NCBI GenBank assembly: GCA_010672585.1
Contig: JAAHGF010000006.1
Location: forward strand, 304,635-368,634
Source of the DNA: Okeania sp. SIO1I7
GTDB lineage: Bacteria > Cyanobacteriota > Cyanobacteriia > Cyanobacteriales > Microcoleaceae
DNA length: 64,000 nucleotides
Reading direction: 5' to 3'
Shown: in pieces, positions 4,781 through 51,681 of the stretch
How the letters are laid out: the number at the start of each line of letters is the position of its first letter
Position numbering within the stretch: position 1 is the first letter of the stretch
Translations under genes and position numbers: made by a program
Notes under the pieces: model-generated
Databases searched by the model: none
Told to the model about the DNA's origin: nothing
The model's input: only the letters and a program-made list of their open reading frames with translations

Positions 4781-5302
4781 TTTAATTAAGTTAAAAGTTA
4801 TAGCAAGAAAAGTATAGTTTATACCAAATTAATCAGATTGTAACAATAATAGACGCTTTTGGAGTTCCTTTCTTTGTGCGCGTGTTGTATTCTTATTGGA
4901 AAGGGAGGACTGAGGGAGTATTGAAGTATAAAAGTTTGATTACAATTAATTAAACGGACATGATGTTATTTATTGCTCTAATAGACATCTCCAATAATAA
5001 AAAATAAAATCAATTATTCTACATAAATTATCAATTATTTCCCCTCCCAGGAGGGGGAGGGGCGAGGGGTGGGTTCCCTACTCCCTACTCCCTACGTAAG
5101 CATTCAGCCGTCAGCTATCAGCTATCAGCTATGAGTTATTAGCTCATTATCAGCTCAAAAGAGGATTAGTCTCCAAGGATAATTAAAACTTATAAAAAAA
5201 ATGTCTTCAGCTAACCTTAGTAATTTCTTGAATATGTTCAAAAGCTGATAGCTGTTTGCGCAGCATTCCGTAGGAAATGCTAATAGCTGAATGCTTACCT
5301 CC
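4781..5302. other. repeat-filled intergenic region
   Basis: No gene was found between panB and the STAND gene. It contains a single family V end (about 4822), a family Y G-rich repeat (5041-5075), CTCCCTA heptamers, TCAGCTA heptamers (about 5105-5145) and a GCATTCCGyAGGAAATGC palindrome near 5262-5280. Confidence 0.6.
5041..5075. repeat. family Y C/G-rich palindromic repeat
   Basis: The core CCCCTCCCAGGAGGGG is a near-perfect palindrome followed by GAGGGGTGGGTT. Other copies lie at 24000-24034, 28624-28666 and 30440-30521. Confidence 0.7.
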
Positions 5303-6742: not shown

Positions 6743-6821
6743 AGCTACAGGTAGATTGGTAGTTTAGTTTTGCATAGTTTAAATTTATCACACTTTTTCT
6801 CACTTGAAGAATTAAATAACA

Positions 6822-6885
6822 CTTTTTAACACTAAATTAGTTATAAAAAAATTGCTTTTTAACACTAAAACACACTTTTATAACT
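6822..6885. promoter_or_regulatory. candidate operator in divergent promoter region
   Basis: Between the divergent STAND gene and AAA cassette lie two exact direct repeats CTTTTTAACACTAAA (6822-6836 and 6855-6869, 33 bp apart, about three helical turns). They are interleaved with a perfect inverted repeat AGTTATAAAA (6839-6848) / TTTTATAACT (6876-6885). The arrangement suggests a regulator binding site controlling one or both directions. The HTH domain of the STAND protein is an obvious but unproven candidate. Confidence 0.5.
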
Positions 6886-6979
6886 AGACAAAATAGAGAT
6901 GTATGTGAGTTAATAGAAGATGTAGAAATAAAATATTTAGGAATAGAAAAATTAGGAATACTATATTTAGGATTTGTAG

Positions 6980-7750
6980 TTGATTCAAAGCATTAAACAT
7001 AGGAATTATGCAATGATTTTGAACTGGTTTTCTAAAGACTATTCTGAGGGAAATAAACAAATAACTCCCCAAGAAGAAGAGCAAATATTAGCTCATTTTC
7101 AAGAATGGATATCACAAATTTCAGAAGTACCAGAAGTTCAGGTAATGATGACCTATGCCGAGGCTATTGATTATTTCCAGAGCGATATGCCATCTCATTC
7201 TAGTGTGACAAAAGGAGTAATTATTCGTCAAGAAATACTTGAAGGAAAACTCTTAGGACAGGTTTTTTTAGACACAAATAATCAGCTTGTTTATCGTTCT
7301 GATGGAACACCCTATGGTCGTCAGTTAGTAGCCATAAAATTAGATGGTAAACTAAATATAAATTTTGGGAATAAAGACTTGATTTATGTGAATTTGAAGT
7401 CTAATAAATCTAGTTTTAATAAGTTTCATCCAAGGATTAATTGGCAATTTTTGAGTAATTGCTTCAAAGACTTAGGGAAAACAAGAGAAGTCATACCAGT
7501 TATGACCTATGAAGATACAATTAAGTATTTTATTACAGATCGACCATCCGATCCAAGGGTTAAAAAAGGAGCTCTTTTACGCCAAACTCATTCCCAAGGT
7601 CAACTCTTGGCACAAATGTTTTTGGATAGTAATAATGAAATAATCGATCGCCCAGATGGAACACCCTATGGTCGCCAGGTAGTGGCAAAAAAGTTGGATG
7701 CAGAACTAGAGGATGCTTTTGATAACGAAAATTTAATTATTGTGGAGTGA
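6980..7750 (+). CDS. unrecognised protein with two tandem copies of one domain
   Basis: This 256-residue cytoplasmic-looking protein contains an internal duplication. Residues about 55-140 and 173-256 share a pattern: MTYxxxIxYF, then DxPS, KGxxxRQ, GxLLxQxFLDxNN, DGTPYGRQxVAxKLD. An N-terminal helical stretch (about 1-50) comes before the first copy. I do not recognise a described domain. It is the first gene of a tight same-strand cassette: the next gene starts 7 bases after its stop, followed by an AAA+ ATPase, so the three products probably act together. The start may instead be the internal ATG at 7013 (MILNWFSK). There is no signal peptide or membrane segment. Confidence 0.75.
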   Translation: MIQSIKHRNYAMILNWFSKDYSEGNKQITPQEEEQILAHFQEWISQISEVPEVQVMMTYAEAIDYFQSDMPSHSSVTKGVIIRQEILEGKLLGQVFLDTNNQLVYRSDGTPYGRQLVAIKLDGKLNINFGNKDLIYVNLKSNKSSFNKFHPRINWQFLSNCFKDLGKTREVIPVMTYEDTIKYFITDRPSDPRVKKGALLRQTHSQGQLLAQMFLDSNNEIIDRPDGTPYGRQVVAKKLDAELEDAFDNENLIIVE

Positions 7751-7757
7751 AAACAAG

Positions 7758-8060
7758 ATGGACCCAATTACCATTGCTGCTATTATTACTGCTATTTCTT
7801 TAATAATTGCTGGTTTGCGATTAATTCACACTGCTTTCCTGCTTGTATCTACTATTATTGACTGGTTTAGAACTCAGGCAAGAAATCGTGAAATTCATGC
7901 TACTTTGAAAGAGAGACTTGCAAACGGGCAACATAAAATCATTGCAGTAGGTTTAGACAGTAATTGCAATGTTAAAGAATCTATAGCTTATCAATCTAAG
8001 AAAATTGACTCTGAATTACGCAAAGCTCATCTCGGTGAAGAACTTGTAATCTGGACGTAA
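7758..8060 (+). CDS. small membrane-anchored protein of the AAA cassette
   Basis: The 100-residue protein begins MDPITIAAIITAISLIIAGL, a hydrophobic segment that continues to about residue 38. It is thus anchored at its N-terminus, with a soluble tail of some 60 residues ending in GEELVIWT. Starting at MDPIT, rather than six codons upstream, leaves a 7-base gap from the previous stop and gives the usual beginning of such proteins. From memory, small MDPxTI-type proteins with a similar tail recur in cyanobacterial genomes, without an assigned function. The next gene, the AAA+ ATPase, starts 30 bases downstream. Confidence 0.72.
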   Translation: MDPITIAAIITAISLIIAGLRLIHTAFLLVSTIIDWFRTQARNREIHATLKERLANGQHKIIAVGLDSNCNVKESIAYQSKKIDSELRKAHLGEELVIWT

Positions 8061-8090
8061 AACAGCAAACTACTAATAACTATCCAAGAA

Positions 8091-9200
8091 ATGAACCCAC
8101 CTCGCGATATTCGCATACAGGGTATTCCTGATAGCGTACCAGAAGCTATAGCTGCAGTGTGTCGGTCTAGATTCTCCCTTGCAGTCAATAAGTTACTTGA
8201 TGAAACTGGTATTGAGGATATCAAAGTAACTGTTAGTACTGCACTTGAAAAAGACAGTTCGCAAAACGGACAAAATTCTATCCAGAAAAAATCAGACCGC
8301 GACTTATCCCCAGAAGAACGCGCTAAAAGGTACAAAGCTCAAAAACCCCTATTTACTTTCGAGCAGTTAGTCATCCCTGAAAAAGTCAGAGAAGACCTCC
8401 TGTTAGCTGTTGACTTAATTCGCTTAGAATCTAAAGTTTTCGATGAGTGGGGTTTGCGTAAAATTGAACCTTTTCCTCGTACAGCACTAAACTTTCACGG
8501 TAAACCAGGAACGGGAAAAACTCTCGCAGCACACGCCATAGCTTCTAAAATCAACCGTCCTATTTTAGTTGCTAGCTATGCTCAAATTGAGAGTATGTAC
8601 CACGGTGAAGGACCCAAAAACGTCGAGGCAATTTTTCTGGCAGCAGAACAACAAAATGCTCTGTTATTTATAGATGAAGCTGACTCCTTACTTTCCAAAC
8701 GACTCACCAATGTCACCCAAGGATCGGAGCAAGCTATTAACTCTATGCGGAGTCAGTTACTTATTTGCTTAGAGAGATTTCGCGGAGTAGTCATGTTTTC
8801 CACAAATCTTGTAGAAAATTATGACAAAGCATTTGAGACGCGGGTGAGAAACATATACTTCCCCATGCCAGATGAAACCTGTCGTCGCGAAATTTGGAAC
8901 AGACACCTTGTCAAAGAGCTACCTACAGCACCAGATATCTCCTTAGAAAAACTAGCTCAGGTTGAAGATGTTTGCGGGAGAGATATCAAAAATGCTGTTA
9001 TAGATGCAGCTATGAGAGCAGCACGTCAAAGAAAAGAAGAACTCACACTAAGCGAACTACTTGAGTCTATTAACTCCATTAAGAAAGCACGAATTAACGT
9101 TACCCCAGCATCAAGACCCTTAACTCCAGAAGAAAAAGAGGAGACTGAGAAAAAAATCAAAGAAGCTTTAGCTAAGAAAAAACAGGAAGGTACATCCTGA
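8091..9200 (+). CDS. AAA+ ATPase of an accessory cassette
   Basis: The 369-residue protein is a single-ring classical AAA ATPase. Walker A is GKPGTGKT at 137-144, Walker B LLFIDEAD at 191-198, sensor 1 near N239 (MFSTNLVENYD) and an arginine-finger region at R251-R253 (FETRVRNIYFP). The C-terminal helical lid is at 260-330 and a charged lysine/glutamate-rich tail ends the protein. The first 120 residues, with a charged linker around 55-85, are not recognised and probably bind a substrate or partner. Pore-loop-like residues (SMYHGEG) suggest protein remodelling. It is the last gene of the cassette with the tandem-domain protein and the small membrane protein. Confidence 0.85.
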   Translation: MNPPRDIRIQGIPDSVPEAIAAVCRSRFSLAVNKLLDETGIEDIKVTVSTALEKDSSQNGQNSIQKKSDRDLSPEERAKRYKAQKPLFTFEQLVIPEKVREDLLLAVDLIRLESKVFDEWGLRKIEPFPRTALNFHGKPGTGKTLAAHAIASKINRPILVASYAQIESMYHGEGPKNVEAIFLAAEQQNALLFIDEADSLLSKRLTNVTQGSEQAINSMRSQLLICLERFRGVVMFSTNLVENYDKAFETRVRNIYFPMPDETCRREIWNRHLVKELPTAPDISLEKLAQVEDVCGRDIKNAVIDAAMRAARQRKEELTLSELLESINSIKKARINVTPASRPLTPEEKEETEKKIKEALAKKKQEGTS

Positions 9201-9319
9201 TATAGAAAATGTGAAGCATTTGGAGGTTATATCTTTATTCTCTAAATGCTTCGCTCCCTCATCTCCCGACTCTTAAATAAGAGCGATCACGCAAGCGGTG
9301 CAGAGCATTATCGCAACAT

Positions 9320-9742
9320 TCATGTAACAAACCAATTAACAACTGTAACCTCCAAGAAATCCTGATAATCTGACACATTATTCGTCACCAGAATCAAACC
9401 ATTAACTTTAGCAACTGCTGCAATTTGACCATCAGCAAAAGCAGGAGTTTTGCCAATACTGGTCAATCTAGCTCTTTCAAGGGCGTGCCATGTCGCAGCG
9501 TTAACATCATAAGGTAGAATCGGAATAGTAGAACGAACTATCTCATTCAAATATCTTTCTAAAAACTTGCGTTTCCTAGAATTGGGAAGGCGACTGCAAC
9601 CAAACAGAAGTTCGTGCCACACCGTAGTTGAAGTAGCAATTTCTCCTTCGTGTTGTTGTAGTTTTGCCATAACATTTGGGTGCGGGTGTTGGCGTGTTGG
9701 TTCCGATAGAACATTAGTATCGAGCAAAAAACGTAAACTCAT
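9320..9742 (-). CDS. type II toxin, VapC-family PIN-domain ribonuclease
   Basis: The 140-residue PIN-domain protein is a probable site-specific RNase toxin. It shows the acidic catalytic set: D8 in FLLDTNVLSE, the conserved glutamate in TVWHELLFG (about 44), D104 in AFADGQIAAVA and a final acidic residue in LVTNNVSDYQDF. The start codon overlaps the stop of the upstream antitoxin gene by four bases (ATGA), the usual translational coupling of toxin-antitoxin pairs. It sits close to a HicA/HicB pair, forming a small defence or stability island after the AAA cassette. Confidence 0.9.
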   Translation of the reverse strand: MSLRFLLDTNVLSEPTRQHPHPNVMAKLQQHEGEIATSTTVWHELLFGCSRLPNSRKRKFLERYLNEIVRSTIPILPYDVNAATWHALERARLTSIGKTPAFADGQIAAVAKVNGLILVTNNVSDYQDFLEVTVVNWFVT

Positions 9743-9960
9743 AAAATTACTTCTCTACCAGATGATGAATCTCGAACCCCCTCAAAAACTTCTGGTTCGA
9801 TCCATATTCCTTCAGTATCAAGTTCTTGACGAAAGCTATTGAGACTTTTCCAGAAACTACCCCTTGTTTCAATGGTAATCAAAATCTCTTGACCATCAGG
9901 AATGTTTATATCCTCAAAAATTTCGATATTTCTTCCTCGTTTTATACCTTTGACAAACAT
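9739..9960 (-). CDS. VapB-like antitoxin
   Basis: The 73-residue product from the internal ATG at 9960 (MFVKGIKRGRNIEIFEDINI) has the form of small antitoxins: an N-terminal beta-rich DNA-binding segment (IEIFEDINIPDGQEILITIE) and a C-terminal toxin-binding tail. A start 14 codons earlier is possible but gives an untypical leader. It precedes the PIN toxin with a 4-base overlap, so the pair is one transcript, and antitoxins of this kind normally repress their own promoter. Confidence 0.8.
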   Translation of the reverse strand: MFVKGIKRGRNIEIFEDINIPDGQEILITIETRGSFWKSLNSFRQELDTEGIWIEPEVFEGVRDSSSGREVIL

Positions 9961-10122
9961 TGTACCACCTTGATAAGAATTGAGACTAACGACTATTATC
10001 ATAACACAATTTGCAACTGTCGGATTTTCGATCCAATCTAAAGTTTGAACCTCATTTGAAAAATTTAGTTTTTATGCTTTAATAAAAAAATCTACCCTTA
10101 AACATGATTTCTCCGTCCATCC

Positions 10123-10347
10123 ATGCCAAAAAAAATTAGGGAACTAAAAAGTATGCTACGCAAGGCAGGATTTATTTATCGTTCGGCAAAAGGCAGTCAC
10201 ACTAGATGGGTTCATCCTTTACTTCCAAACCAACCTATTACTATTGCAGGTAGAGATGGAGAGGACGCTAAACTTTATATAGAAAAAGAAGTTAATCGCA
10301 AATTGGAAATGTTAAAAACCATCGAACAACAGGAGTCAGAAGAATGA
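10123..10347 (+). CDS. hicA: HicA-family mRNA interferase toxin
   Basis: The 74-residue protein matches the HicA (YcfA) fold, a double-stranded-RNA-binding-like mRNA interferase. The signature is KSMLRKAGFIYRSAKGSHTRWVHP, with the catalytic histidine in GSHTRW. HicA proteins are usually 60-80 residues long. It is followed by, and overlaps by four bases (ATGA), a HicB-type antitoxin gene. Confidence 0.9.
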   Translation: MPKKIRELKSMLRKAGFIYRSAKGSHTRWVHPLLPNQPITIAGRDGEDAKLYIEKEVNRKLEMLKTIEQQESEE

Positions 10348-10571
10348 AATTACCCTATACAGTCGTCATTTTTTGGTCGGATGAAGATAACTGCTATCTG
10401 GTTCATTTACCAGAATTTCCTTCTCAAAAATTTCATACCCACGGAAATTCTTATGAAGAAGCAATACAAAATGCTTGCGAAGTATTAGAGCTGTTAGTTG
10501 AAGAATATCGGCAAGAAGGTAAAAGCCTCCCACAACCTAAAAATATAGAACAAACTCTTCAATTAGCATAA
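10344..10571 (+). CDS. hicB: HicB-family antitoxin
   Basis: The 75-residue product has the HicB RNase-H-like partial fold: YTVVIFWSDEDNCYLVHLPEFP followed by the helix SYEEAIQNACEVLELLVEEYRQEG. It lacks the extra C-terminal DNA-binding domain that longer HicB proteins carry. Its start overlaps hicA, so the two are coupled. A second, broken hicB-like gene lies 230 bp downstream. Confidence 0.9.
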   Translation: MKLPYTVVIFWSDEDNCYLVHLPEFPSQKFHTHGNSYEEAIQNACEVLELLVEEYRQEGKSLPQPKNIEQTLQLA

Positions 10572-10800
10572 AGATGGCAGGAATGATCGCTTTTTATATT
10601 TACAGGACTTACGCACCTACACTATATATAGCGTCTATTAATCTAGGCGATCGCTTCCTCCGATTTCCCAACTATTAAATAAGAGCAATCGCCCAAGCAG
10701 TGAGGTTCGCGATCGCTATAAAAAAGGTTGCTAAAATCAATCATTTTAGGTAGACTAGATTTTGGAAATAATTCCAATTATATAGAAAAAATTATATACG

Positions 10801-11043
10801 ATGAAAACTAAAAGCTTTACTGCTATCCTTTATAAAGAAGATGATATGTACATAGCTGAATTTCCAGAAGTCGGCACAGTTGACTAAGGTAAAACAATAG
10901 AAGAAGCTTTAGCGAATCTCAAAGAAGCTACAAAACTCTATCTGGAAGAATGTCCGCTACCTGAAACAACCCCAAGATTAGTCACCAGTATAGAGGCAAA
11001 CAGGGAACGCGCAAGATGCCCATTCCACAAAAACAATAGCTGA
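10801..11043 (+). pseudogene. hicB-like antitoxin broken by an in-frame stop
   Basis: Translation from the ATG at 10801 gives a HicB-like start (FTAILYKEDDMYIAEFPEVG), then a TAA at codon 29 (10885-10887), then in the same frame the expected helix (GKTIEEALANLKEATKLYLEE). In relatives the interrupted position is typically glutamine (VDQG), so a CAA to TAA change would explain it. The frame closes at 11041-11043. No hicA partner sits beside it, so it looks like a decayed solitary antitoxin. Confidence 0.8.
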
Positions 11044-11094
11044 TGGCTGATAGCTGAATGCTGTTTGCGCAGCATTCCGCAGGAAATGCTTACT

Positions 11095-12930
11095 TTATCT
11101 TAAACCTAACCACCGTAAAATAGGAATAATCACATAATGACTCACTCCCAAACAAAAACCACCGATACAACCTAACAAACTGAAAAAAGTTATGCTTGCA
11201 AAAAATTCTAATAAATTAGGTTGACTGTGATTAACAACACTAAACTGTAAAAATAACTCTGGGACAATATTTAATTGCTCCAAACCCAAAAAAACTATTG
11301 CCGTCAAACTAGCAACTATCAAAGTATAAATAAAATTATGCTTTCTTAAACCAAGTCCTAAAGTAATAACACCAGTAGCTACTCCCACAGATAATTTCCC
11401 CATAATTTCTAGGATAATTAAATCTTCCTTTGTCGTATAGACACTGCTACCAACTTGAGAAAATTGCCAACATAACCCACCCAAAATGTAACCAATAATT
11501 CCCATAAATGCAGCCAACCCATAACGACGACGTTGACCTAAACCTCCCACATCCGTTAAACCAACTCCCGTTCCCAAACCAGCTAAACCAAAGACAAGTA
11601 TTTCCGGACCAATATTTAGGGGAACATCCCACACAAGAAAAATTAGATTCGTAAATATACTAGCGAGGCGATCGCCTATTCCTGACCAATAAGCAAAAAT
11701 TAATCCGAATGTTGCTCCAATGCTACCCCCAACTGCACCCAGTACCATTTCCCAAATTGTATCTACACAACCTGAAACTATTTGATTAAAAATTTTAGAC
11801 AGCGTAAAAAATAACTTATTAATATTCTCACTGAGATTTTTCAACTGAGCTATTAATAAATTTTTAATAGTTGTAGCTAATGTAGCTAAAGAATATATTC
11901 TCAGAGACCTCTTTTGCCGTCGATAAATTTTAGCTAAACGGACTTGCACTTCTGCTGCTGTTGCTGGTCGTTGGGTAACATCTAAGCTAACCATATCATC
12001 AAGTAAATTAGCCAAAGCTGGATGAACAGGCTTAAGTTGACGCCACTTTAGTTTACCTGTTAAGGGGTCTTCCAAGTCTGCTGGATATTGACCAGTTAGT
12101 AAATGAATGCAAGTACGACCCAAAGCATAAAAATCTGTAAAAGGGCCAATTTCACCTCCATTAATTTGTTCTGGAGGGCTATATCCAGGAGATACTAATC
12201 TGGTTGTGCTGCGTTTTGCGATAGTTTCTCTAGGTTGGATTCTATAATTACTAATTTGTTTTACTCCACCGAAGTCAATTATGACCAGTTGACCTCTTTT
12301 TTTTCGTTGATGATGAAAAGAATAGGATAAAGAAGATTTTGTCAAAGTTGAAGGTTGGATTTCCCGCAGCATTAAATTAGAAGGCTTAATGTCCCTATGA
12401 ATAATTTTCCGGCGATGTAATTCCCATAAAATTTCTACAGCTTGGGAAAGCCAATTGATTACATAGAAATCTGGACATCCTTGGGTATATTGTTCCAGAA
12501 TTTCTTCTAGGGTACAACCATCAATTTTTTCCATGACTAGGCATGGGAGAAACCATTGACTAGAGTGGCCCACTGCTGGCTGACGATTTCGCTTGCGTAG
12601 ATGAAAATAGTCTCCTGTTTCGACTCTAGGAATACCTGAATGGCGCATACTGGCAAGTATCCAGGCTTCCTGGTCGAATAGTTCGAGTGCTTTGGGAGAG
12701 CTTTCCAATAATACTTTGAGGATACGTTCAGTTTGAGTTTTTTGGTCCCAAATAATGTAGATTTTCGCAAATCCACCAGCGCTTAATTTTCGCAGGGGAA
12801 TGTAGCGATCGTTCAGTAGAAGTGGGGTTCCACAACTTTGACAAAAGTTATTGCCCCATGCCTGGATTGGACTTAGACAATGGGGATTAATACAGTGGAT
12901 TGTTGATAAAACAGACTGATGTACAGTCAT
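11095..12930 (-). CDS. zinc-finger serine/threonine protein kinase with membrane domain
   Basis: This 611-residue Hanks-type kinase starts with a cyanobacterial four-cysteine motif (C13, C18, C30, C33), likely zinc-binding. The kinase domain covers about 42-340: glycine loop LSAGGFAKIY, K72 in ILKVL, E88 in FDQEAW, HRDIKPSNL at 178-186, DFGG at 219-222 and SPPEQ at 251-255. An insert of basic residues (about 190-213) lies between the catalytic and DFG loops. From residue 380 onward several hydrophobic, glycine-rich segments form a membrane domain of probably six helices. A glycine-rich tandem (FGLAGLGTGVGLTDVGGLGQ) sits within it. It would phosphorylate cytosolic proteins from the membrane; the stimulus is unknown. 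Confidence 0.92.
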   Translation of the reverse strand: MTVHQSVLSTIHCINPHCLSPIQAWGNNFCQSCGTPLLLNDRYIPLRKLSAGGFAKIYIIWDQKTQTERILKVLLESSPKALELFDQEAWILASMRHSGIPRVETGDYFHLRKRNRQPAVGHSSQWFLPCLVMEKIDGCTLEEILEQYTQGCPDFYVINWLSQAVEILWELHRRKIIHRDIKPSNLMLREIQPSTLTKSSLSYSFHHQRKKRGQLVIIDFGGVKQISNYRIQPRETIAKRSTTRLVSPGYSPPEQINGGEIGPFTDFYALGRTCIHLLTGQYPADLEDPLTGKLKWRQLKPVHPALANLLDDMVSLDVTQRPATAAEVQVRLAKIYRRQKRSLRIYSLATLATTIKNLLIAQLKNLSENINKLFFTLSKIFNQIVSGCVDTIWEMVLGAVGGSIGATFGLIFAYWSGIGDRLASIFTNLIFLVWDVPLNIGPEILVFGLAGLGTGVGLTDVGGLGQRRRYGLAAFMGIIGYILGGLCWQFSQVGSSVYTTKEDLIILEIMGKLSVGVATGVITLGLGLRKHNFIYTLIVASLTAIVFLGLEQLNIVPELFLQFSVVNHSQPNLLEFFASITFFSLLGCIGGFCLGVSHYVIIPILRWLGLR

Positions 12931-30729: not shown

Positions 30730-33700
30730 TTACTGTAAACCACCGGAAACAAAACCTGCCCAATAATAAGGGTTAATAAAGGGATACTCTTTCTGACATA
30801 ACAACTCCAGGTTATTTTTCATTTTCACAACCCGTTTTTTATTCTCCTCTGTCTCAATATTCTGCAAATGCGCCTCTAGTTGCTGCCGATACTTATCATT
30901 AAGTTGTTTTCCTGTCAAGTTGCGCAAATCAGTTTGAGCTTTGTGCAATGCTTGCGGGCGGGTGTATTCGGGGTTTTGCCGATGTTCATAATAAAACAAA
31001 CAAAATAGTGCTGTCGCGAAATCATCCACCGCCCATAATGTACTGACTACACTCTGAGCGCCTGCACTCAGGAAACCTGCTGCAATAGTTAGAATGTCAT
31101 CGTTAACTTTGCTGACTGTGAGATTCGTTTCGCAACATGAGAGGAAGACATCGGTTAATTCTGGTAAACGCCAGGTAAACACATCCCCAAGGGTGACTTC
31201 CCCATCGAATAATTTTAGTTTTGAGTCTAGGGGGTTGATTAAGTCGGCGCTAGCGTGATGACTGGAATGGAGAAACTGTACTTGTTTTGTGAGCTGGCGG
31301 TAGTTGTTGACTGTTGCTTGTTGGTATTGGAGGCGGTGGTGTTTGGAGACTTGGAACATTTGGGCGAGGTTTTCACATTCGTATCCGGTGAAAATGAGGT
31401 CGCCTGTGGCGTTTTCCACAATTCCCATTTTTTGGGAGTTGATGGTTTTGTTGCGGTTGTCGCAATAGCTAAGTATTTGGCAACTGGGTATAATTCGCAG
31501 GTGGAATATATCGCTGAGATAGGTGGGTTTAGTTTCGGATGTTTTTGGTTTGTTGGTTGGTTGTGAGGTAGTTTCTTTGCCAGTGGGAATAGAGAGGCGA
31601 GTGTCTGCAAATTCCCGGTAAAATCCCCCTCCCGTCCCCCTTTGAAAGGGGGAAGCCGGATCTAAATAGCCCCCCTTACCAAGGACTGAATCTTCATAGC
31701 CCCCCTTACCAAGGGGGGTTGGGGGGATTTCTCCTCCACCGGGAGTCAGGGAGACATCCACAGGCAAAGCAGCAAACGGAATTTGATGTAGAGCTAGATG
31801 CGGAACAATAATTAATTCTTTGATATCGCTCAGGTATTGGCTAATAAGTTGATTCAGTTGCAAGCGTTGGGAGAGTTTTTGGAGAAATTCACCCATATTT
31901 TTACGCCATTCTTGATTTTTATTATTTCTGTAGTCATCGTAGGGATTTAACCAGTTATCAATTATCCAGTTTTGTAACGCCTCGATATCCTGACCTTTGC
32001 AAGTGAAAAGTTGGACATCCTGCGGGCGCACTATAAATATATAGGTATCATCATAAGTGGTGTAAAAACTCAATATCGCCGTCTCCTCATCCTTGATCAA
32101 TGCTTGCATCTGCTGGATACTCAAGGGGTTTACCTGTAACTGACCCGCCAATACTGGGTCAGATTTACGAATCTCTCGCCAAACCTGCTGCCGTTTTGCT
32201 TCTGTTTTTTCAATTTCCGCCAATTTTTGCTCTGCTTCTTCCCTACTATTGCGACGGTCAAACCGACTATTTGCAGTAACGAGTTGTTTGCTTTCGTCAG
32301 AGATGGAGCGACGGAGCTGATACAAATATTGTTGCAATTGATAATATTCTTCTAGGAGTTGGGGTGGTATTTCTGCGTTTGGGTAGAGGTCTTTGCTTGC
32401 CATTAATTCTGTCACCATACGGGAGCGGGAACGTTCGGCGTATTCTACTGCTTTGTGATATTGTTTGAGGTAGACAAAGCATTGGACGATCTTTTGGTAG
32501 ACTCCGATGGCTTCTTCCAGGATTTCTTGGCGGTGATCGTCGTCTTGAGACCAACTGCGACTTAGTTCGACCGCTCTTATAGCTTTTTCGTAGGCAACGA
32601 TGGCAGGTTGGCAGTTGCCTTCCTTGAAGTGGAGGTCGCCTAAGTTGCGGGATGTTGTCAGACATTGAATCGGGTATACCTTGGGGGTGTGAACTTCCAA
32701 TGCTAGATTATATGCAGAAATAGCATTTTCCAGATTCTGTGCCCGGTCGCCACTGATTCTCTCACAGTAGGCATGGCCTAGATTATTTTGAGTCTCTGCC
32801 CAATCCATGGGAAAGTCTTTTTGGGTGCGAACTGACAACGCCAGATTATATGCAGCAATAGCATTTTCCAGATTTAGTGCCCGGTCGCCACTGATTCTCT
32901 CACAGTAGGCATTGCCTAGATTGTTTTGAGTCGTTGCCCAATCAATGGGGAAATCTTTTTTGGTACGAACTGACAACGCCAGATTATATGCAGCAATAGC
33001 ATTTTCCAGATTTAGTGCCTGGTCGCCCTTGATTTTTTCACAGTAGGCATTGCCTAGATTGTTTTGAGTCCCTGCCCAATCAATGGGGAAGTCTTTTTTA
33101 GTGCGAACTTCCAATGCTAGATTGCATGCAGCAATAGCATTTTTCAGATTCTGTGCCCGGTCGCCAGTGATTCTGTCAGTGTAGGCAATGCCTAGATTGT
33201 TCTGAGTCATTGCCCAATCAATGGGGAAGTCTTTTTTATTGCAAACTTCCAATGCTAGATGATATGCAGCAATAGCATTTTCTAGATTTAGTGCCCGGTC
33301 GCCACTAATTCTGTTCTTGTAGGCAATGCCTAGATTGTTCTGAGTCCTTGCCCAATCAATGGGGAAATCTTTTTTGGTACGAACTGACAACGCCAGATTA
33401 TATGCAGCAATAGCATTTTCTAGATTTAGTGCCCGGTTGTCACTGATTCTGTTATTGTAGGCAACGCCTAGATTATTTTGAGTCCTTGCCCAATCAATGG
33501 GGAAATCTTTTTTGGTGTGAACTTCCAATGCTAGATGATATGCAGCAATAGCATTTTCCAGATTTAGTGCCCGGTTGCCACTAATTCTGTTATTGTAGGC
33601 AACGGCTAGATTGTATTGAGTCCTTGCCCAATCAATAGGGAAATCTTTTTTGGTGCGAACTGACAACGCCAGATCATATGCAGCAATAGCATTTTCTAGA

Positions 33701-34446
33701 TTTAGTGCCCGGTCGCCACTGATTCTTTCACTGTAGGCGTTGCCTAGATTGTTCTGAGTCGTTGCCCAATTGATCGGGAAATTTTTTTTGGTGTAAATTT
33801 CCAATGTCAGATTAAATGCAGCAATAGCATTTTCCAGATTTAGTGCCCGGTCGCCACTGATTCTTTCACTGTAGGCAATGCCTAGATTATTTTGAGTAAT
33901 TGCCCAATTTTCCGGGTTACTCTTCTTGGCTAAGACTTTTAGCACCACTTCGTAACCAGCAATCATGATTTCCATATTATTTGCTTTGTTGCCGAGTGGG
34001 AAGTTATTGAGGCGGTTGCTAAAATACCAAATAGTCTCAGTGATGAATTCTGCTGCATCTGTTTCTACTTCTGAGAGTTTAGCTGTTGCAAAGGTTTGTA
34101 GGATGTGAACAAAGTTCTCATCAAGTTTGTCTAGGTTTACTTGCAAGAGTGGATAGATGACTTTGGGGTCGCCGTTGCTGTCGGCAGTTGCCTGCAATAC
34201 TTGGATTAAAAAGTCTAGTTGAGAATGGAGCTTATCTGGTAATTTTTCTCTAGTAGCAGCAGTTGCACTTAAGCTATCGTAATGTTGATTTTTAGGCAAC
34301 AATCTCCGGCGCAAAGATGGAAATATTAAGATTAACACTAACGTTAACACTAGCACAGGCAAACCTATGAACACGATTACCAGGAGTTGGATCAAACTGC
34401 GCCCTAGTTTCGAGATAAATTTTTTGAAGTGAAAAATTTGTTGCAT
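30730..34446 (-). CDS. membrane-anchored TPR-CHAT protease-like protein
   Basis: The 1238-residue protein has an N-terminal membrane helix (about 18-45), then nine to ten near-identical 46-residue TPR-type units (WAxTQNNLGxAYxxRISGDR, with NLENAIAAYNLAL between), then further TPRs to about 700. It ends in a CHAT domain, the caspase-like cysteine peptidase fold. Likely catalytic residues are H1064 (HSSHHAS) and C1104 or C1105 (LSCCETN). CHAT proteins act as proteases in conflict and cell-death pathways. A Gly/Pro-rich stretch (residues about 902-942) is encoded by an inserted interspersed repeat at 31620-31740. No partner gene is close, apart from a PIN toxin pair upstream. Confidence 0.88.
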   Translation of the reverse strand: MQQIFHFKKFISKLGRSLIQLLVIVFIGLPVLVLTLVLILIFPSLRRRLLPKNQHYDSLSATAATREKLPDKLHSQLDFLIQVLQATADSNGDPKVIYPLLQVNLDKLDENFVHILQTFATAKLSEVETDAAEFITETIWYFSNRLNNFPLGNKANNMEIMIAGYEVVLKVLAKKSNPENWAITQNNLGIAYSERISGDRALNLENAIAAFNLTLEIYTKKNFPINWATTQNNLGNAYSERISGDRALNLENAIAAYDLALSVRTKKDFPIDWARTQYNLAVAYNNRISGNRALNLENAIAAYHLALEVHTKKDFPIDWARTQNNLGVAYNNRISDNRALNLENAIAAYNLALSVRTKKDFPIDWARTQNNLGIAYKNRISGDRALNLENAIAAYHLALEVCNKKDFPIDWAMTQNNLGIAYTDRITGDRAQNLKNAIAACNLALEVRTKKDFPIDWAGTQNNLGNAYCEKIKGDQALNLENAIAAYNLALSVRTKKDFPIDWATTQNNLGNAYCERISGDRALNLENAIAAYNLALSVRTQKDFPMDWAETQNNLGHAYCERISGDRAQNLENAISAYNLALEVHTPKVYPIQCLTTSRNLGDLHFKEGNCQPAIVAYEKAIRAVELSRSWSQDDDHRQEILEEAIGVYQKIVQCFVYLKQYHKAVEYAERSRSRMVTELMASKDLYPNAEIPPQLLEEYYQLQQYLYQLRRSISDESKQLVTANSRFDRRNSREEAEQKLAEIEKTEAKRQQVWREIRKSDPVLAGQLQVNPLSIQQMQALIKDEETAILSFYTTYDDTYIFIVRPQDVQLFTCKGQDIEALQNWIIDNWLNPYDDYRNNKNQEWRKNMGEFLQKLSQRLQLNQLISQYLSDIKELIIVPHLALHQIPFAALPVDVSLTPGGGEIPPTPLGKGGYEDSVLGKGGYLDPASPFQRGTGGGFYREFADTRLSIPTGKETTSQPTNKPKTSETKPTYLSDIFHLRIIPSCQILSYCDNRNKTINSQKMGIVENATGDLIFTGYECENLAQMFQVSKHHRLQYQQATVNNYRQLTKQVQFLHSSHHASADLINPLDSKLKLFDGEVTLGDVFTWRLPELTDVFLSCCETNLTVSKVNDDILTIAAGFLSAGAQSVVSTLWAVDDFATALFCLFYYEHRQNPEYTRPQALHKAQTDLRNLTGKQLNDKYRQQLEAHLQNIETEENKKRVVKMKNNLELLCQKEYPFINPYYWAGFVSGGLQ
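31620..31740. repeat. interspersed repeat inserted in frame in the CHAT gene
   Basis: The DNA AAATCCCCCTCCCGTCCCCC followed by TTGAAAGGGGGAAGCC recurs in the intergenic element at about 48578-48614. CCCCCTTACCAAGG is repeated twice here. In the minus-strand frame it encodes GKGGYEDSVLGKGGYLDPAS and similar, unlike the rest of the domain. Confidence 0.75.
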
Positions 34447-45797: not shown

Positions 45798-47159
45798 ATG
45801 GTTCTGAGCAAGAACTACTGGACATTACGCAAAATTGATTTAGCTAGCTATGATGTGTCTGGTTCTCAGAGAGGATATCGAGAGGAGGTACTATTGTCTG
45901 TTCAGCAACAATTTCAAATCTGGTTTCCGTCTATTGCTAAACTCAAAGAACTCTCCTCCCAAGATGACCGAAAAATTCAAGCTACTTTGCTATCTCACTT
46001 TCTATCTCAAAATTCTGCCTCTTCTAAGGAATGCAGCATAACAGCAGGACTTTCTTTGCGCTGCTATATTTCTCATAGCATTGTTCATGCTTGTCAAAAA
46101 CTGGCTCAACAATTTGGCGATCGCTATGGTTTTTCTCACTTAGACTTGTTGTACCTGGTACTCACTGATGATGGTAAAATCAAGAGTTTTCAGGAAGCTA
46201 GCGAAAACTCTCAGTCTTCTTACCCCTATTTTTGGGCGCACATTTTAAGAAAGTTCAATCCTCAGAAAGCTGGACTCTGGAATTGGACTTATTTACTTAC
46301 CCGTCGCCACCCAGAACTAACTCGAACGTTATGGGTAGAATTTGGTTTATCTTTAAGTACTCCTTGGGGAAAACTAAATGAGATTAAGCGTTACCAAATG
46401 GAAACTCTTTCACCTCAAGAACAAGATGTGGTAGAGGTGTTTCATGGAGTATATCGACGCGACAGACGAGAACAGGGTGCAAGGGGCAAATGTCCCGAAC
46501 CTTCTGAGTCTCAACTTCAGGAAATGCGCGATCGCCTTTTTCCCAGGGGAGTTGTATATAATTCTTCAGATGAACTACTTGAGCAATTGAAAACTATTGC
46601 TCAGTTTATACAGGAACAAATATTAAATCCAACTGAGATTTCACCACCCTCTAATGCTTCAGCAATGGAACTTGAATTTCTAGATGAACATCGCGATCGA
46701 GCTATTATGGATGCTATTGAGGGGGTGCTTTCTCAACGTTTGCAGAAACTACAAAAAAGTCCTTGGTATAGTGAATTTGCTCCTCATTTTCTACCTATGT
46801 TACGACTAATTTATTGTGAAAATAAATCTCAAAGTGAAGTAGCTAAACAATTAAATATGAATAATCAATCTCAAGTTAGTCGCATCTTAAAACTTAAGCA
46901 AATGCTGAAGCAAATTAGAGAAGAGGTAATGGAGAAAATGCTGCAAATTTTGTTGAATAAAGCAGGGTTAAATTCAAGTCAAGGGGTTTTAGACCCAAAT
47001 GCTTTTGATTCTTTAATTGAACTATTAAGTCGTTATTTAGATGAAACCGTTTTTTTAGAAGCAGTCAAGGAAAATTCTACAGGCAGGAAATACAAAAAAA
47101 TGACAAGTTTGTTCGCTGAAAAAATGCGCCATCATCTTAAATTTAGTCAGCCTACTTGA
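45798..47159 (+). CDS. sigma-70-like regulatory protein
   Basis: The 453-residue protein looks like a diverged sigma-70-like factor found in cyanobacterial clusters with DUF1822 and CHAT proteins. A central segment (about 150-215: KAGLWNWTYLLTRRHPELTRTLWVEFGLSLSTPWGKLNE) takes the place of region 2. Near residues 330-370 a helix-turn-helix (LIYCENKSQSEVAKQLNMNNQSQVSRILKLKQ) resembles region 4. The long first 130 residues are unassigned. Translation starts after AAGGAGG, an unusually strong ribosome site for this window. The next two genes follow on the same strand, so it likely controls or belongs to the receptor cassette. Promoter recognition is inferred. Confidence 0.7.
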   Translation: MVLSKNYWTLRKIDLASYDVSGSQRGYREEVLLSVQQQFQIWFPSIAKLKELSSQDDRKIQATLLSHFLSQNSASSKECSITAGLSLRCYISHSIVHACQKLAQQFGDRYGFSHLDLLYLVLTDDGKIKSFQEASENSQSSYPYFWAHILRKFNPQKAGLWNWTYLLTRRHPELTRTLWVEFGLSLSTPWGKLNEIKRYQMETLSPQEQDVVEVFHGVYRRDRREQGARGKCPEPSESQLQEMRDRLFPRGVVYNSSDELLEQLKTIAQFIQEQILNPTEISPPSNASAMELEFLDEHRDRAIMDAIEGVLSQRLQKLQKSPWYSEFAPHFLPMLRLIYCENKSQSEVAKQLNMNNQSQVSRILKLKQMLKQIREEVMEKMLQILLNKAGLNSSQGVLDPNAFDSLIELLSRYLDETVFLEAVKENSTGRKYKKMTSLFAEKMRHHLKFSQPT

Positions 47160-47250
47160 CATAATAATAAGTAGCAAAAAAAGCACATTAATTATTCCAT
47201 AGATTGCAAAAATAAAACTTAAAATTACAACAATGACCAGGAGAATTAAT

Positions 47251-48486
47251 ATGACTAATTATCAGCAAAAAAACAAACTATATTACCGACAATTGCACTT
47301 ACAAACTATTGATTTAGAATCTGAAGATTTTCAACAAGCAACTCTTTTGAGCGATCGCTTTAAGAACGAAGCCCAACAATGGCAAGCTTATGTGAACATA
47401 TTGGGTTTATTAGCACTAAAAAAATGGTTGAGCGATCGCCATTTAACATTAGATAATCCAATTGAATCTTTGCCACCTCATCAAATTATCAGTTCTGAAC
47501 CAATGAGCAATCTGCAAGTGGGTGGATTTAAAGTCTGCTTACTGACAAATGAAAATATAGTAAATGAAGGAATTGAAATTCCAGAAAAAATGATTGATTC
47601 TCCAGATTTTGCTGCCCATTTTTATGTATTAATACAGGTATTAGTAGAGGAAGAAGAAGCTATTTTAATTGGATTTATACGGCACGATCAATTCAAAAAT
47701 CGGTCTTTACAAAAAAATGAAATAGGAAATTATCCACTTTCTTTGACTAAACTAAATTATGACTCCAGCCACTTAATTTTAAATTTGAAATATTTGAGTC
47801 CGGCAGCTATTAAAGTTCCAGAAAATACCTTTGCTTTGGAAAAATTAACAAGTTGGTTAGAACGTATTTTTACAGAAGCTTGGCAACCAGTGGAAGAACT
47901 TCTAGGAAATCGTCAACCCATTATGACAATGGCTTTCACTTTAGAAAAAAACACAGAAAAATTATCTCCTAAAGTAGTTAAAAAATTTCTTCAACAATTC
48001 CAAATGACTCAAAAAACCAGAGAAAAAATACAGGCAGATTTATCTCAAACCGAACTCTCAGAGACAGAAGTAAATAAAGCTCTCGTACAGATTTTACAAA
48101 CAACAGAAGATGAAGAAACACGCTGGCAAGTTGCCGAATTGTTGTGGGAAATTGACCCTAGTCATCCAGCAGCAGGTGTACGTCGCGCTATCGATCTAGG
48201 AATGCAACTGGCAGGAATTCCAGTGGCATTGATGATAGCCATTTTACCAAAACCAAACCAAAGATTTGCCGTTCTTTCCAGACTTTATCCTCTCCAAGAC
48301 CAACGTTTTTTACCAGCAAATTTAAAACTTATTGGTTTAGATGAAATGGGGCAATCTCTATTTGAAATTCGTGCTAGAGAACGAGATGATTATATTCAGT
48401 TCAAATTTACCGCCGATCCAGGCGATCGCTTTAGTCTTCAAGTTAGCTTTAATTCTGCTATTGTGACAAAGCACTTTATTATTTGA
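47251..48486 (+). CDS. DUF1822-family protein
   Basis: The 411-residue protein from ATG 47251, preceded by CAGGAG, belongs to the cyanobacterial DUF1822 family. The N-terminal pattern ATLLSDRFKNEAQQWQAYVN followed by LALKKWLSDRHL is characteristic, with a middle beta-rich part (VGGFKVCLLTNE) and a C-terminal region (PAGVRRAIDLGMQLAG, then IALMIAILPK-like). It has no membrane helix. DUF1822 genes typically sit between a sigma-like gene and a CHAT or kinase gene, as here. The function is unknown; it may link the receptor to the sigma-like protein. Confidence 0.8.
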   Translation: MTNYQQKNKLYYRQLHLQTIDLESEDFQQATLLSDRFKNEAQQWQAYVNILGLLALKKWLSDRHLTLDNPIESLPPHQIISSEPMSNLQVGGFKVCLLTNENIVNEGIEIPEKMIDSPDFAAHFYVLIQVLVEEEEAILIGFIRHDQFKNRSLQKNEIGNYPLSLTKLNYDSSHLILNLKYLSPAAIKVPENTFALEKLTSWLERIFTEAWQPVEELLGNRQPIMTMAFTLEKNTEKLSPKVVKKFLQQFQMTQKTREKIQADLSQTELSETEVNKALVQILQTTEDEETRWQVAELLWEIDPSHPAAGVRRAIDLGMQLAGIPVALMIAILPKPNQRFAVLSRLYPLQDQRFLPANLKLIGLDEMGQSLFEIRARERDDYIQFKFTADPGDRFSLQVSFNSAIVTKHFII

Positions 48487-48496
48487 GTAAAAAAGT

Positions 48497-48702
48497 GGCG
48501 TTGCTGATTATGGGTATTATTTTGCCCCCCTATCCCCCCAATTTTGGGGGGAATAAAACTCTAAAATTCCCCCCTTTAATCCCCCTCCCGTCCCCCTTGG
48601 AAAGGGGGAAGCCAGATGTTGCTTCGCTTTTTGTTGAAAGGGGATTTAGGGGGCTTTACCAGAACCAAACAATCGCGTTTCATACTTCAATTCAGCAACG
48701 CC
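48497..48702. mobile_element. family Z MITE, 206 bp, with 8-bp target duplication
   Basis: Left end GGCGTTGCTGATTATGGG and right end TTCAATTCAGCAACGCC are inverted. Exact flanks AAAAAAGT lie at 48489-48496 and 48703-48710. It sits ten bases after the DUF1822 stop codon. It carries the AATCCCCCTCCCGTCCCCC block that also lies inside the 30.7-34.4 kb CHAT gene. Confidence 0.8.
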
Positions 48703-48719
48703 AAAAAAGTAATAAAATC

Positions 48720-48960
48720 GTAGGTTGGGTTAAGCGCTAGCGCAACCCAAAAACAATGTCTAAAAATATTGGTATTGGTCTGCAAGAAGAACGTAGGGGC
48801 GAATGGGATTTGCTAACGCAAAGCTGCGCTAACGCCCTCTCTGGATAAGCGTGTCCATGCGTAAGTCCTGACAATATGATCTTCTTTTGGTACTAAGATT
48901 AGGTGTTGGGTTTCCTGTCCTCAACCCAACCGACAAAGAGCAAATTTTTGGAGATATCTA
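48720..48960. repeat. REP copies between DUF1822 and the CHAT receptor
   Basis: REP palindromes at 48720-48750 and 48905-48931, with a GCTAACGCAAAGCTGCGCTAACG repeat fragment around 48820. No gene is present in the 48487-49005 spacer. Confidence 0.6.
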
Positions 48961-49005
48961 TTGAACCGAATATAATATTAAAACTAAAGCAATGAATTAA
49001 TCATA

Positions 49006-51681
49006 ATGGCTAGACAAGTTGTTATCAAAATAGAAGAAGGGAGTTTTGAATTAGGTTTTCCTGTTTCCCTGGAGTTTTGGCAAGATGGTAGAATCATTGC
49101 CACAGAACGCAAGTGTCCTCAATTGCCCCCTAACCCAGATTTTCCTATAGTTTATGATGAATGGAGAAACATTTATACTGAGTTGGGGAGAAACCGAGCG
49201 ATCAAGATGCAAGAGGGGCAAACTACCAACATCTCAAGTTTAGAAGGCTGTCAAAATGCCACTCGAACCCTAGAATCTAATGTAAGAAATTGGTTAGGGC
49301 AACCTATCTTTGGAGCTATAACAGCGCGAATTATAGGACAACTCAAAGATGGAACTCCAAATGAATCAGTTCGAGTGATCATCCATACATCAAATCCTTA
49401 TCTGCGTAAGTTATCCTGGGATTATTGGGATTTATTTGAGAAATCATATTTTTTACCCCAAGCAGAATTTGCTCTTTTATCTAAATATAATCGACCAACA
49501 GAAACGTTGCAAAAACCGATTCATATTCTGGCAATTTTTGGGAGCAATGAGGGGGAATTACAACTGCAACAAGATCGGGAACTCATTGAAAACTTACAAC
49601 AACACGGGGCAAAAATTACCTCTATTCCAACGATGGGAAATTCTCTGACTCCTCAAGAACTATTTGATACTATTTGGCTCGGAAATTGGGATATTATTTT
49701 TTATGCAGGACATAGTTCTGAGCAGACTATTCATGTCGATCATGCTTTAAATTTATCAATCAATCTTTTGAGAGAAGCTTTGAGGAGAGCTGCTCCTAGA
49801 GTTAAGCTGGCAATATTTAATTCCTGTGATGGACTGGGTCTTGCTGAATATTTAGCTGATTTTGATATTCCCCATATAATTGTGATGCGAGAACCTGTTC
49901 CCGATTTAGTAGCACGGCGTTTTTTGCAATATTTCCTGGAAGAATTTACCCAAGGTAGACCTCTCCACGCCTCTGTTCGAGAAGCACGGAGGCATTTAAA
50001 ACAACTGGAAATTCCTATTCCCAATGAATTGTTTTATCCAAGAGCATCTAGACTACCTGTACTCATCCAAAATCCTGCTACACCTGAACTATATTGGCCT
50101 CAACCTAAAAAACATCCAGGCAAATATCCAATAAAACCTAAGTACATAATTCTGTTTTTCTTGGCGATCGCTGGTATTTTGGGAATTTGTCGTTGGTTTT
50201 ATCCTGAACCTGAAATGCTTGGAGATAACATTAGTAAAGGTGAGGAAATTCTGGTCAAACTATTTCAACCACGAGATAAACAAAGGGGTGTGGATGCAGT
50301 TGCCCAATGCCAAAAACCCTGGAATTATTTTCTACCTATTTGGAACAGTCATATTCGAGAACAATGGAGGGATTGTTTTATCACCAAAAATATTTATCAA
50401 GAGGCAGTTCAAAATCTTCAGCAAAGTTGGAAAGATCGAAGAGACCCAGAAACTTTAATTTATCTCAATAATGCTCTTTTAGAAGCAACAAAAGCTAATT
50501 TCTATACTATTGCAGTTGTGGTTCCAGTTTTACAGGATGCAGAACTCGCTGAAGAAATCTTGCGGGGAGTAGCTCAAGCGCAAATGGAAGTTAACTTGAG
50601 TTTATTCAACGCCAAAAAATCCTCTAATTTTACTTTACCGGGTGCAAATTTTCTAGACTCGAAAAGCTTGAATGGAAAAGGTTTAAAAGTCATTATTGCT
50701 AATGATGCCAACTTAAAGACTCAGGCAAATAAGGTTGCCAATACAATAGTCAAACGGTCAGAGATTCGAGGTGTTATTGCTTCTTGGACCAGTGAGATGA
50801 CGATGGCAACTGTAGATATATATAACCAAAATCAATTCGTATCAGTTTCTCCTGGTGCGGCCACTTCTGAACTCACACAAAAACTTAGACCATTTTTCTT
50901 CCGAATTACCGCAACTAATGATCTCCGAGCAGAAGCAATGGTTGATGTCTTGATGAATAAAATTAATCAAAACAAAGCTACGATTTTTTATAACCCTGCT
51001 AGTGCCTATTCTAGTGATTATAAAAAACATTTTAAACGAAAACTCTCGGAAAAAGGAGGATATGTCATTGATTCATTTGATATTTCTCGGTCTAATTTTA
51101 ATGCTAAAGATGCTATCCAAAAAGTCAGAAAATATGGTAATTCAGCTATTGTTCTCATCCCAGATGGTCAAGTGACTAATTCTTTTGCTAATGCTCTGAA
51201 AATCATCGAAGAAAATGGTGGTCAAAACTGGATAGTTGGTGATTCGTCAATTTACAGTCCGAAAACCCTAAAGATAGCTCAACCCCAACTCTTGGAAAAA
51301 CTTATTGTCACTATTAATTGGCATCCTCTAAGCAATTCAAAATCTGATTTTTCTCAGACCACTGAGCAGCTTTGGGGAGGTCCTGTTAGCGGTCGTACAG
51401 CTTTGAGCTATGATGCTGCTCGGGTGCTAATCAAAGGGATTCGGCAACAATCTACTCGTCGGGGGATTCAGAAGATATTAACAGATAAAAATTTCCACGT
51501 TGAGGGGGTAACAGGAAAAATTGAATTTAAACCAGGAACTGGCGATCGCCAAAAACTACCCTTGGAATTAGTTCGAGTTGTTTCTTGTCCAACGAAGACC
51601 AATAGCGATCGCTTCGTATTTATTCCTTATAAGTATTCAAAACCTGAAGATGCAGGGTTGAAATGCTTGAGTTCTAAGTAA
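49006..51681 (+). CDS. CHAT peptidase fused through a membrane helix to a substrate-binding domain
   Basis: The 891-residue protein joins a cytosolic caspase-like CHAT domain to an outside sensor. Residues 1-120 are a beta-rich N-terminal module. The CHAT domain (about 170-350) has likely catalytic H236 (FYAGHSS) and C274 (FNSCDG). A single membrane helix spans about 379-397 (YIILFFLAIAGILGICRWF). Residues about 500-870 form a periplasmic ligand-binding domain of the branched-chain amino-acid-binding/ANF receptor type (TIAVVVPVLQDAELAEEILRGVAQAQ, then ASAYSSDYKKHF and ALSYDAARVL). Similar outside domains are known on cyanobacterial Ser/Thr kinases. It would sense a small molecule and trigger a protease. 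It is last in a cassette with the sigma-like and DUF1822 genes. Confidence 0.88.
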   Translation: MARQVVIKIEEGSFELGFPVSLEFWQDGRIIATERKCPQLPPNPDFPIVYDEWRNIYTELGRNRAIKMQEGQTTNISSLEGCQNATRTLESNVRNWLGQPIFGAITARIIGQLKDGTPNESVRVIIHTSNPYLRKLSWDYWDLFEKSYFLPQAEFALLSKYNRPTETLQKPIHILAIFGSNEGELQLQQDRELIENLQQHGAKITSIPTMGNSLTPQELFDTIWLGNWDIIFYAGHSSEQTIHVDHALNLSINLLREALRRAAPRVKLAIFNSCDGLGLAEYLADFDIPHIIVMREPVPDLVARRFLQYFLEEFTQGRPLHASVREARRHLKQLEIPIPNELFYPRASRLPVLIQNPATPELYWPQPKKHPGKYPIKPKYIILFFLAIAGILGICRWFYPEPEMLGDNISKGEEILVKLFQPRDKQRGVDAVAQCQKPWNYFLPIWNSHIREQWRDCFITKNIYQEAVQNLQQSWKDRRDPETLIYLNNALLEATKANFYTIAVVVPVLQDAELAEEILRGVAQAQMEVNLSLFNAKKSSNFTLPGANFLDSKSLNGKGLKVIIANDANLKTQANKVANTIVKRSEIRGVIASWTSEMTMATVDIYNQNQFVSVSPGAATSELTQKLRPFFFRITATNDLRAEAMVDVLMNKINQNKATIFYNPASAYSSDYKKHFKRKLSEKGGYVIDSFDISRSNFNAKDAIQKVRKYGNSAIVLIPDGQVTNSFANALKIIEENGGQNWIVGDSSIYSPKTLKIAQPQLLEKLIVTINWHPLSNSKSDFSQTTEQLWGGPVSGRTALSYDAARVLIKGIRQQSTRRGIQKILTDKNFHVEGVTGKIEFKPGTGDRQKLPLELVRVVSCPTKTNSDRFVFIPYKYSKPEDAGLKCLSSK

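Follow-up and report, generated by a model that had tools for sequence, protein, structure and literature searches.

In a stretch of 64,000 nucleotides from Okeania sp. SIO1I7 (contig JAAHGF010000006.1; hereafter the window), the gene at 49006-51681 of the forward strand encodes a membrane receptor in which a caspase-like CHAT peptidase, a transmembrane helix and a periplasmic-binding sensor domain are joined in one polypeptide. A preliminary description, made from the sequence alone, had read this protein as a one-component death or stress receptor. We found that it is not a free-standing one-component receptor: its gene is the third of a conserved cluster, behind the genes for a sigma-70-family factor and a DUF1822 protein, and this cluster points to an output that is probably transcriptional. 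We tentatively propose, with a confidence a little short of even, that the protein is a modular transmembrane receptor-protease feeding a dedicated sigma factor, its CHAT proteolysis being gated by a ligand and acting on the sigma/DUF1822 pair.

The sigma-DUF1822-receptor gene cluster

All three genes of the window lie on the forward strand, in the order sigma-like gene (45798-47159), DUF1822 gene (47233-48486) and receptor gene (49006-51681). Of the 19 genes with the CHAT-membrane helix-periplasmic-binding architecture in the sampled genomes, the window's included, 17 have DUF1822 directly upstream, a figure composed of 15 of 17 genes in fetched stretches (in L051, DUF1822 is read in two open reading frames, ORFs) and two genes placed by coordinates (G197, G095). 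The two exceptions are L057, in whose stretch tblastn finds no DUF1822, and L047, where the contig ends about 730 bp upstream of the receptor gene. Sigma and DUF1822 genes precede the receptor in seven of the eight named records; in L015, sigma and receptor are each read in two ORFs.

The pairing of sigma and DUF1822 was recovered from both sides. Anchoring on DUF1822, we assembled 46 loci, hand-picked across genomes and scores among the matches listed, with the weak matches of one family (f31) left out. A sigma-like gene stands directly upstream of DUF1822 in 41 of these, 37 by our own sigma hidden Markov model (HMM; same strand) and four (L176, L178, L189, L192) by matches to Pfam or NCBIfam models with E under 1e-4. 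The remaining five have an opposite-strand neighbour (L168, L190), recN (L186), a neighbour with a sigma match of 0.0043 only (L169) or an unscanned neighbour (L179). Anchoring on sigma genes of the window's type, DUF1822 is directly downstream in all 14 loci, and a CHAT gene follows directly behind DUF1822 in eight of them. Across the DUF1822-anchored loci, a CHAT or C14 gene is directly behind DUF1822 in 22 of 46. Since sigma-DUF1822 pairs also occur without such a gene behind them, DUF1822 does not need CHAT: sigma and DUF1822 form the core pair, to which a protease is added in a subset of loci. The median gap is 25.5 bp among 76 pairs of sigma and DUF1822 and 61.5 bp among 58 pairs of DUF1822 and CHAT or C14, both samples containing near relatives. 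None of the ORFs in the loci scanned fuses DUF1822 to sigma, CHAT or C14.

These partners also bear on the suggested role in cell death. Such a receptor would kill the cell by releasing, upon ligand binding, a CHAT protease of broad specificity, while sigma and DUF1822 would only regulate expression or restrain the protease. CHAT is a caspase-like domain, and the main text of Kaur, Iyer, Burroughs and Aravind (2021, eLife; PMC8195603) puts these modules among apoptosis- and immunity-like systems. However, the stable partner genes encode a sigma factor and DUF1822, with no recognised killing effector, and a comparison with the PADLOC defence models at E 0.01 gave no match for the receptor, the sigma factor or the DUF1822 protein of the window. 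We therefore regard a death receptor as unlikely and prefer the reading in which the protease feeds a sigma factor.

Two features occupy the DNA between the DUF1822 and receptor genes. One, at 48500-48708 (+), is a non-coding interspersed repeat that stands outside the proposed mechanism; BLAST gives 74 matches to it in the genome of the window, where some matches are fragments of a single copy. The other is a conserved leader of about 135 bp directly in front of the receptor gene (48871-49005, +), a putative promoter region of its own; by blastn its identity is 89% and 98% to the leaders of two tandem receptor genes in the Okeania locus L010, and 92% to that of L011. The largest ORF of the window (1238 aa, 30730-34446) is about 11 kb away from the cluster.

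Several sampled loci depart from the simple three-gene order. The Okeania locus L010 carries the two tandem receptor genes at 4911-10700, and local copy number thus varies. L012 has a sensor-only ORF (6488-7633) between DUF1822 and the receptor gene. In L014, no intact sigma or DUF1822 gene lies in front of the receptor, and a 22-residue remnant resembling the DUF1822 end (7609-7674, E 1.6e-4) is found just upstream of it. DUF1822-like sequence occurs in two separate ORFs upstream of the CHAT gene in L204 (7646-10434) and L185 (6417-9135).

The sigma-like factor and the DUF1822 protein

The first gene of the window's cluster (45798-47159) encodes a divergent sigma-70-family factor of 453 aa with a region-4-like helix-turn-helix at about residues 333-377. 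Its own NCBIfam matches, SigBFG (6.8e-05) and sigma70-ECF (0.0007; ECF, extracytoplasmic function), are both under the curated cut-offs. We assign it to the sigma factors because the profile of its family (15 sequences) matches a profile of recognised sigma-70 factors in hhalign (99.4%, E 5.5e-21, 320 columns). The general model TIGR02937 is matched by 17 of 17 members of the recognised set (best 4.1e-33) and, at E 0.1, by only six of the 15 members of the window's family. The shorter upstream proteins of other clusters match the ECF sigma factor RpoE/SigE 2q1z in the PDB (1.6e-4), and TIGR02937 finds six of 13 at E 0.1. Comparing these short proteins with a narrow profile of the window's sigma gave one short motif at 1% probability, and comparing them with the 15-sequence family gave 27.5% over 31 columns only. 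The best NCBIfam match of two upstream sigma factors (L054, L055) is the CASP-sigma model NF041236; this model is unspecific, and a kinship of the upstream sigmas with type III-E systems was dropped.

The second gene (47233-48486) encodes a DUF1822 protein of 417 aa (PF08852, 3.3e-80), our proposed sigma partner and possible protease substrate. In its AlphaFold2 model (mean predicted local distance difference test, pLDDT, 72.9; predicted template-modelling score, pTM, 0.48), an N-terminal domain at about 20-195 and a C-terminal beta-sandwich at about 316-416 are separated by a low-confidence linker at 198-273, with pLDDT below 50 at 198-247 and 258-273. A protease could act on a protein of this modelled shape, two folded parts and a linker. 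No meaningful match was obtained with the DUF1822 profile in the PDB, none at E 0.001 or better with Foldseek, and none for the window's protein in NCBIfam. The weak Foldseek list, mostly beta-sandwich proteins and Brr2, with an RsgI4 sensor domain at rank 10 (E 0.0066), was not used to assign a fold. In the main text of Kaur et al., DUF1822 is labelled a tetratricopeptide repeat (TPR) protein; no such repeats are visible in the model, whose middle part is of low confidence.

We also considered whether CHAT might recognise DUF1822 by its C-terminal domain. Among 58 CHAT/C14-linked proteins, the C-terminal part has a mean pairwise identity of 32.0% versus 24.7% in the N-terminal part, and 30.2% versus 31.2% among 28 proteins without CHAT/C14. 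The direction is as expected, but the difference is small and uncorrected for kinship, and we do not rely on it. Conserved sigma-DUF1822 pairs with no CHAT gene directly behind and a divergent DUF1822 C-terminal part are seen in L147-L159 and L163-L165. Weak single DUF1822 matches (f31) occur in many genomes of about 1.5-2.5 Mb from a distant lineage of the same phylum.

Receptor architecture and exchange of its sensor

The receptor gene is an intact ORF of 891 aa with an ATG start and no internal stops. An AlphaFold2 model built from 19 relatives (mean pLDDT 81.5, pTM 0.58) places an N-terminal alpha+beta domain (residues 1-165; 49006-49500), the CHAT region (about 166-355; 49501-50070), the membrane helix, a juxtamembrane part made of helices, and the binding domain in this order. 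The N-terminal domain may correspond to EACC2, to judge from its position and from its type in the secondary structure of the model. Pfam, hydropathy, AlphaFold2 and Foldseek together bear out the order of CHAT, helix and binding domain that had been described before, and profile searches recovered both CHAT and the binding-protein fold over the curated cut-offs.

The CHAT domain matches PF12770 over residues 191-333 (2.7e-10, 40.6 bits against a cut-off of 24). We aligned 19 full-length relatives, and 18 CHAT modules as a more varied set. Scanned singly at E 0.001, CHAT and Peripla_BP_6 each match all 19 relatives and ANF_receptor matches 17. The GHS and FNSCDGL motifs are invariant, and His236 (49711-49713) and Cys274 (49825-49827) are unchanged in 19/19 relatives and 18/18 modules, which argues for an active site under selection. 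The CHAT profile sets these residues at the GH and NxC of the solved CHAT protein 8tl0, a weak match (E 0.0023). His236 and Cys274, already proposed as catalytic in the preliminary description, are thus the likely catalytic dyad, as judged from conservation.

A single stretch of the receptor, residues 380-398 (50143-50199), exceeds the hydrophobicity limit (mean hydropathy 2.15 over 19 residues). The model has a helix at 381-398 within a low-confidence stretch. Lysine and arginine residues number five in the 20 residues before the helix and two in the 20 after it, and 65 and 42 when summed over the 19 proteins; the bias expected from the positive-inside rule, with more of them before the helix than after, is clear in only nine of the 19. 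A sensor outside and a CHAT domain inside, the orientation suggested earlier, is moderately supported, mainly by domain type.

The region around the helix is also where an autoprocessing receptor would act. In this alternative, CHAT would cut its own chain near the membrane and free a cytoplasmic fragment, with DUF1822 serving as an adaptor and not as the substrate. The low confidence of residues 368-404 in the model would suit it, as would the autopeptidase activation that Kaur et al. propose for EACC2-caspase proteins (PMC8195603, main text). However, the 19 relatives show little conservation in the stretch that links CHAT to the helix. We consider autoprocessing improbable, and retain cleavage directed at the sigma/DUF1822 pair as our working model.

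Behind the helix follow a juxtamembrane segment (residues 410-495; 50233-50490) with a conserved DPETLIYLNNA motif and model helices between 423 and 494, and then a type-1, leucine-binding-like periplasmic-binding domain (499-885; 50500-51660). The latter matches Peripla_BP_6 (2e-24, 554-846) and ANF_receptor (1.6e-16, 555-850) in Pfam, and its profile matches 4mlc/4q6b at 1.3e-29. Foldseek aligns the modelled domain with LivK 3td9 (E 2.9e-19, template-modelling score 0.83 by target length). For the whole receptor, the top 50 Foldseek rows are periplasmic-binding and class-C receptor proteins and thus uninformative on the CHAT part. Ser596 is invariant among the relatives, and aligned solved relatives likewise have Ser there. 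The Ser/Thr motif that follows reads Gly-Ala-Ala in the window, with Ala where many relatives have Ser/Thr. Ser596 and this motif are candidate positions for contact with an amino-acid ligand.

That substitution would fit a sensor that is a relic or serves nutrient uptake, with CHAT as a scaffold devoid of protease function, as would the homology of the domain to ABC-transporter binding proteins. However, the five proteins of the window's stretch that were scanned with Pfam contain no ABC-transporter domain, and the His/Cys pair is invariant in every relative aligned. We judge this explanation very unlikely and keep to a ligand-gated protease.

The receptor architecture recurs. Its nearest named relatives are from Okeania records (the best two at 93% and 81% identity), Lyngbya aestuarii and Hydrocoleum, and the window's own genome of 9.48 Mb has two such genes. 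In a survey of 386 cyanobacterial genomes, the profile of 19 sequences found 18 genes spanning CHAT and the binding domain in 16 genomes, and our own HMMs added one in G097 (L184). Counting the window, this order of domains thus occurs in at least 19 genes, from no fewer than 17 of the 386 genomes; both figures are lower bounds, as only two candidates were scored per genome.

Both halves of the receptor are also found in other combinations. CHAT modules occur with CHASE2 (L061, L066) and nSTAND1 (L081), and by Pfam the binding domain occurs on Pkinase (L068, L083), Peptidase_C14 (L074) and a metallophosphoesterase (L067). The preliminary description's statement that this outside domain is known on cyanobacterial kinases thus proved correct; ten such kinases were found by our own HMM, and they share the sensor domain with the receptor but have a kinase output. 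In the L067 protein (5241-8186), which is 56% identical to the window receptor over residues 379-890, a metallophosphoesterase with a weak bDLD1 match (bacterial Death-like, 0.0011) is joined to this sensor domain and has a membrane helix. C14 caspase-periplasmic-binding proteins parallel to the CHAT receptor are encoded in L074 (6445-9201, by Pfam) and L075 (7987-10791, by our own HMM). In L066, a DUF928 gene (10477-11382, 1e-61) is directly behind the CHAT-CHASE2 gene.

We compared a tree of 65 CHAT modules (24 with periplasmic-binding domains, 24 with CHASE2, 17 other or unclassified) with a tree of 44 sensor domains, 25 of them CHAT-borne; both are quick trees with some long branches. A single clade of CHAT modules bearing periplasmic-binding domains is compatible with the data (p 0.58), whereas the data reject a common clade for the 25 sensors borne on CHAT proteins (p 4.6e-6). 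In the quick tree, a branch with support 99 unites the window sensor with nine CHAT-, six kinase-, two C14- and one phosphoesterase-borne domains and one sensor-only ORF; the other 15 CHAT-borne sensors lie outside it. Because the sensors do not form one clade while the CHAT modules are compatible with one, exchange of sensors on a single CHAT chassis is well supported by these sequences; the number of swaps is not fixed by the trees.

Known systems and a proposed mechanism

In their main text, Kaur et al. describe EACC2-caspase proteins in which the module stays constant and the sensor varies, CHASE2 being one example. They note ECF sigma and DUF1822 genes in most TRADD-N-independent neighbourhoods, and propose that sensing leads to autopeptidase activation and a sigma-mediated step (PMC8195603). 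The window receptor is a variant of this kind already described: it has a caspase-like domain, preceded in the model by an alpha+beta domain that may be the counterpart of theirs, a variable C-terminal sensor behind membrane helices, seen in the above spread of sensors on the same N-terminal module, and adjacent ECF-like sigma and DUF1822 genes. It differs in that the window's sigma is the divergent 453-aa form. The domains named there are CHASE2, PDZ, kinase, STAND and "several small-molecule-binding domains". Our comparison covered the main text, in which none of the terms Peripla, PBP and ligand-binding is used.

Two further cyanobacterial precedents concern the parts of the receptor. The text of Asplund-Samuelsson et al. 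2012 (PMC3501461) reports a C14 metacaspase with ANF_receptor as a single sequence from Cyanothece sp. PCC 7424, and a metacaspase with CHASE2 in another cyanobacterium. The Cyanothece protein shares with ours a caspase-like domain and the class of ligand-binding domain, but has Peptidase_C14 in place of CHAT; the L074 and L075 proteins look like that kind. HetF of Anabaena, described as a putative CHAT protease with one predicted membrane segment (PMC8406250), is a precedent for a membrane CHAT protein; it has a TPR domain where our receptor has its binding domain, and acts in cell division and heterocyst development. Among the passages of text that our literature search covered, none describes a CHAT-periplasmic-binding receptor. 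To these accounts we add this architecture with its count, a measure of the sigma-DUF1822 pairing taken from either gene, the assignment of the sigma factor in the window and the sensor-swap test.

For the step from protease to sigma factor, we infer a course of events by analogy with type III-E systems, in which the CHAT protease Csx29 cleaves Csx30, a protein that binds and inhibits CASP-sigma (Strecker et al. 2022; PMC10028731, text). The likeness is one of layout only, a CHAT protease, a linker-bearing partner and a sigma factor; type III-E is activated by RNA through Cas7-11 and not by an outside ligand, and similarity between DUF1822 and Csx30 was not detected. In our working model, the periplasmic domain would bind a small molecule, which the sensor's family suggests may be an amino acid or the like. 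The resulting change would travel along the juxtamembrane helices, cross the membrane by the one helix there and reach the CHAT domain in the cytoplasm. The His236-Cys274 peptidase would be switched on and act on the sigma-DUF1822 pair encoded just upstream. In the simplest form, DUF1822 would be cut in its flexible linker, and the sigma factor, freed or altered, would change transcription.

Several observations weigh against this model. A CHAT or C14 gene is missing directly behind DUF1822 in 24 of the 46 loci, among them most of L147-L165 and one locus at a contig end (L167). In the window, 519 bp including the repeat and the leader split DUF1822 from the receptor gene, which makes their co-transcription uncertain. 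NF041236 finds sigma factors in 327 of the 386 genomes surveyed and also in 7 of 14 control genomes, in no case over its cut-off, and so is no evidence of kinship. Finally, DUF1822 has no likeness to Csx30 or a known anti-sigma factor that the PDB profile search, Foldseek or NCBIfam could detect.

A wider generalisation, possible though rather doubtful in our estimate, is that cyanobacteria have a family of membrane proteases, gated by ligands and with exchangeable periplasmic-binding, CHASE2 or STAND sensors, which would cut DUF1822 or otherwise lift its inhibition and so release a dedicated sigma factor. Such a family would be a CRISPR-free counterpart, driven by receptors, of Csx29-Csx30-CASP-sigma. 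Our analysis offers a route, open to direct test, by which one caspase-like receptor could connect a ligand outside the cell with a sigma factor, and suggests a role as sigma-factor partner for the widespread DUF1822 family. If the model is true, one protein would stand in for the several proteolytic steps by which ECF sigma factors are classically controlled. Bacterial caspase-like modules would then act as signal transducers whose sensors can be swapped, a point that bears on the uses of such proteases apart from death pathways.

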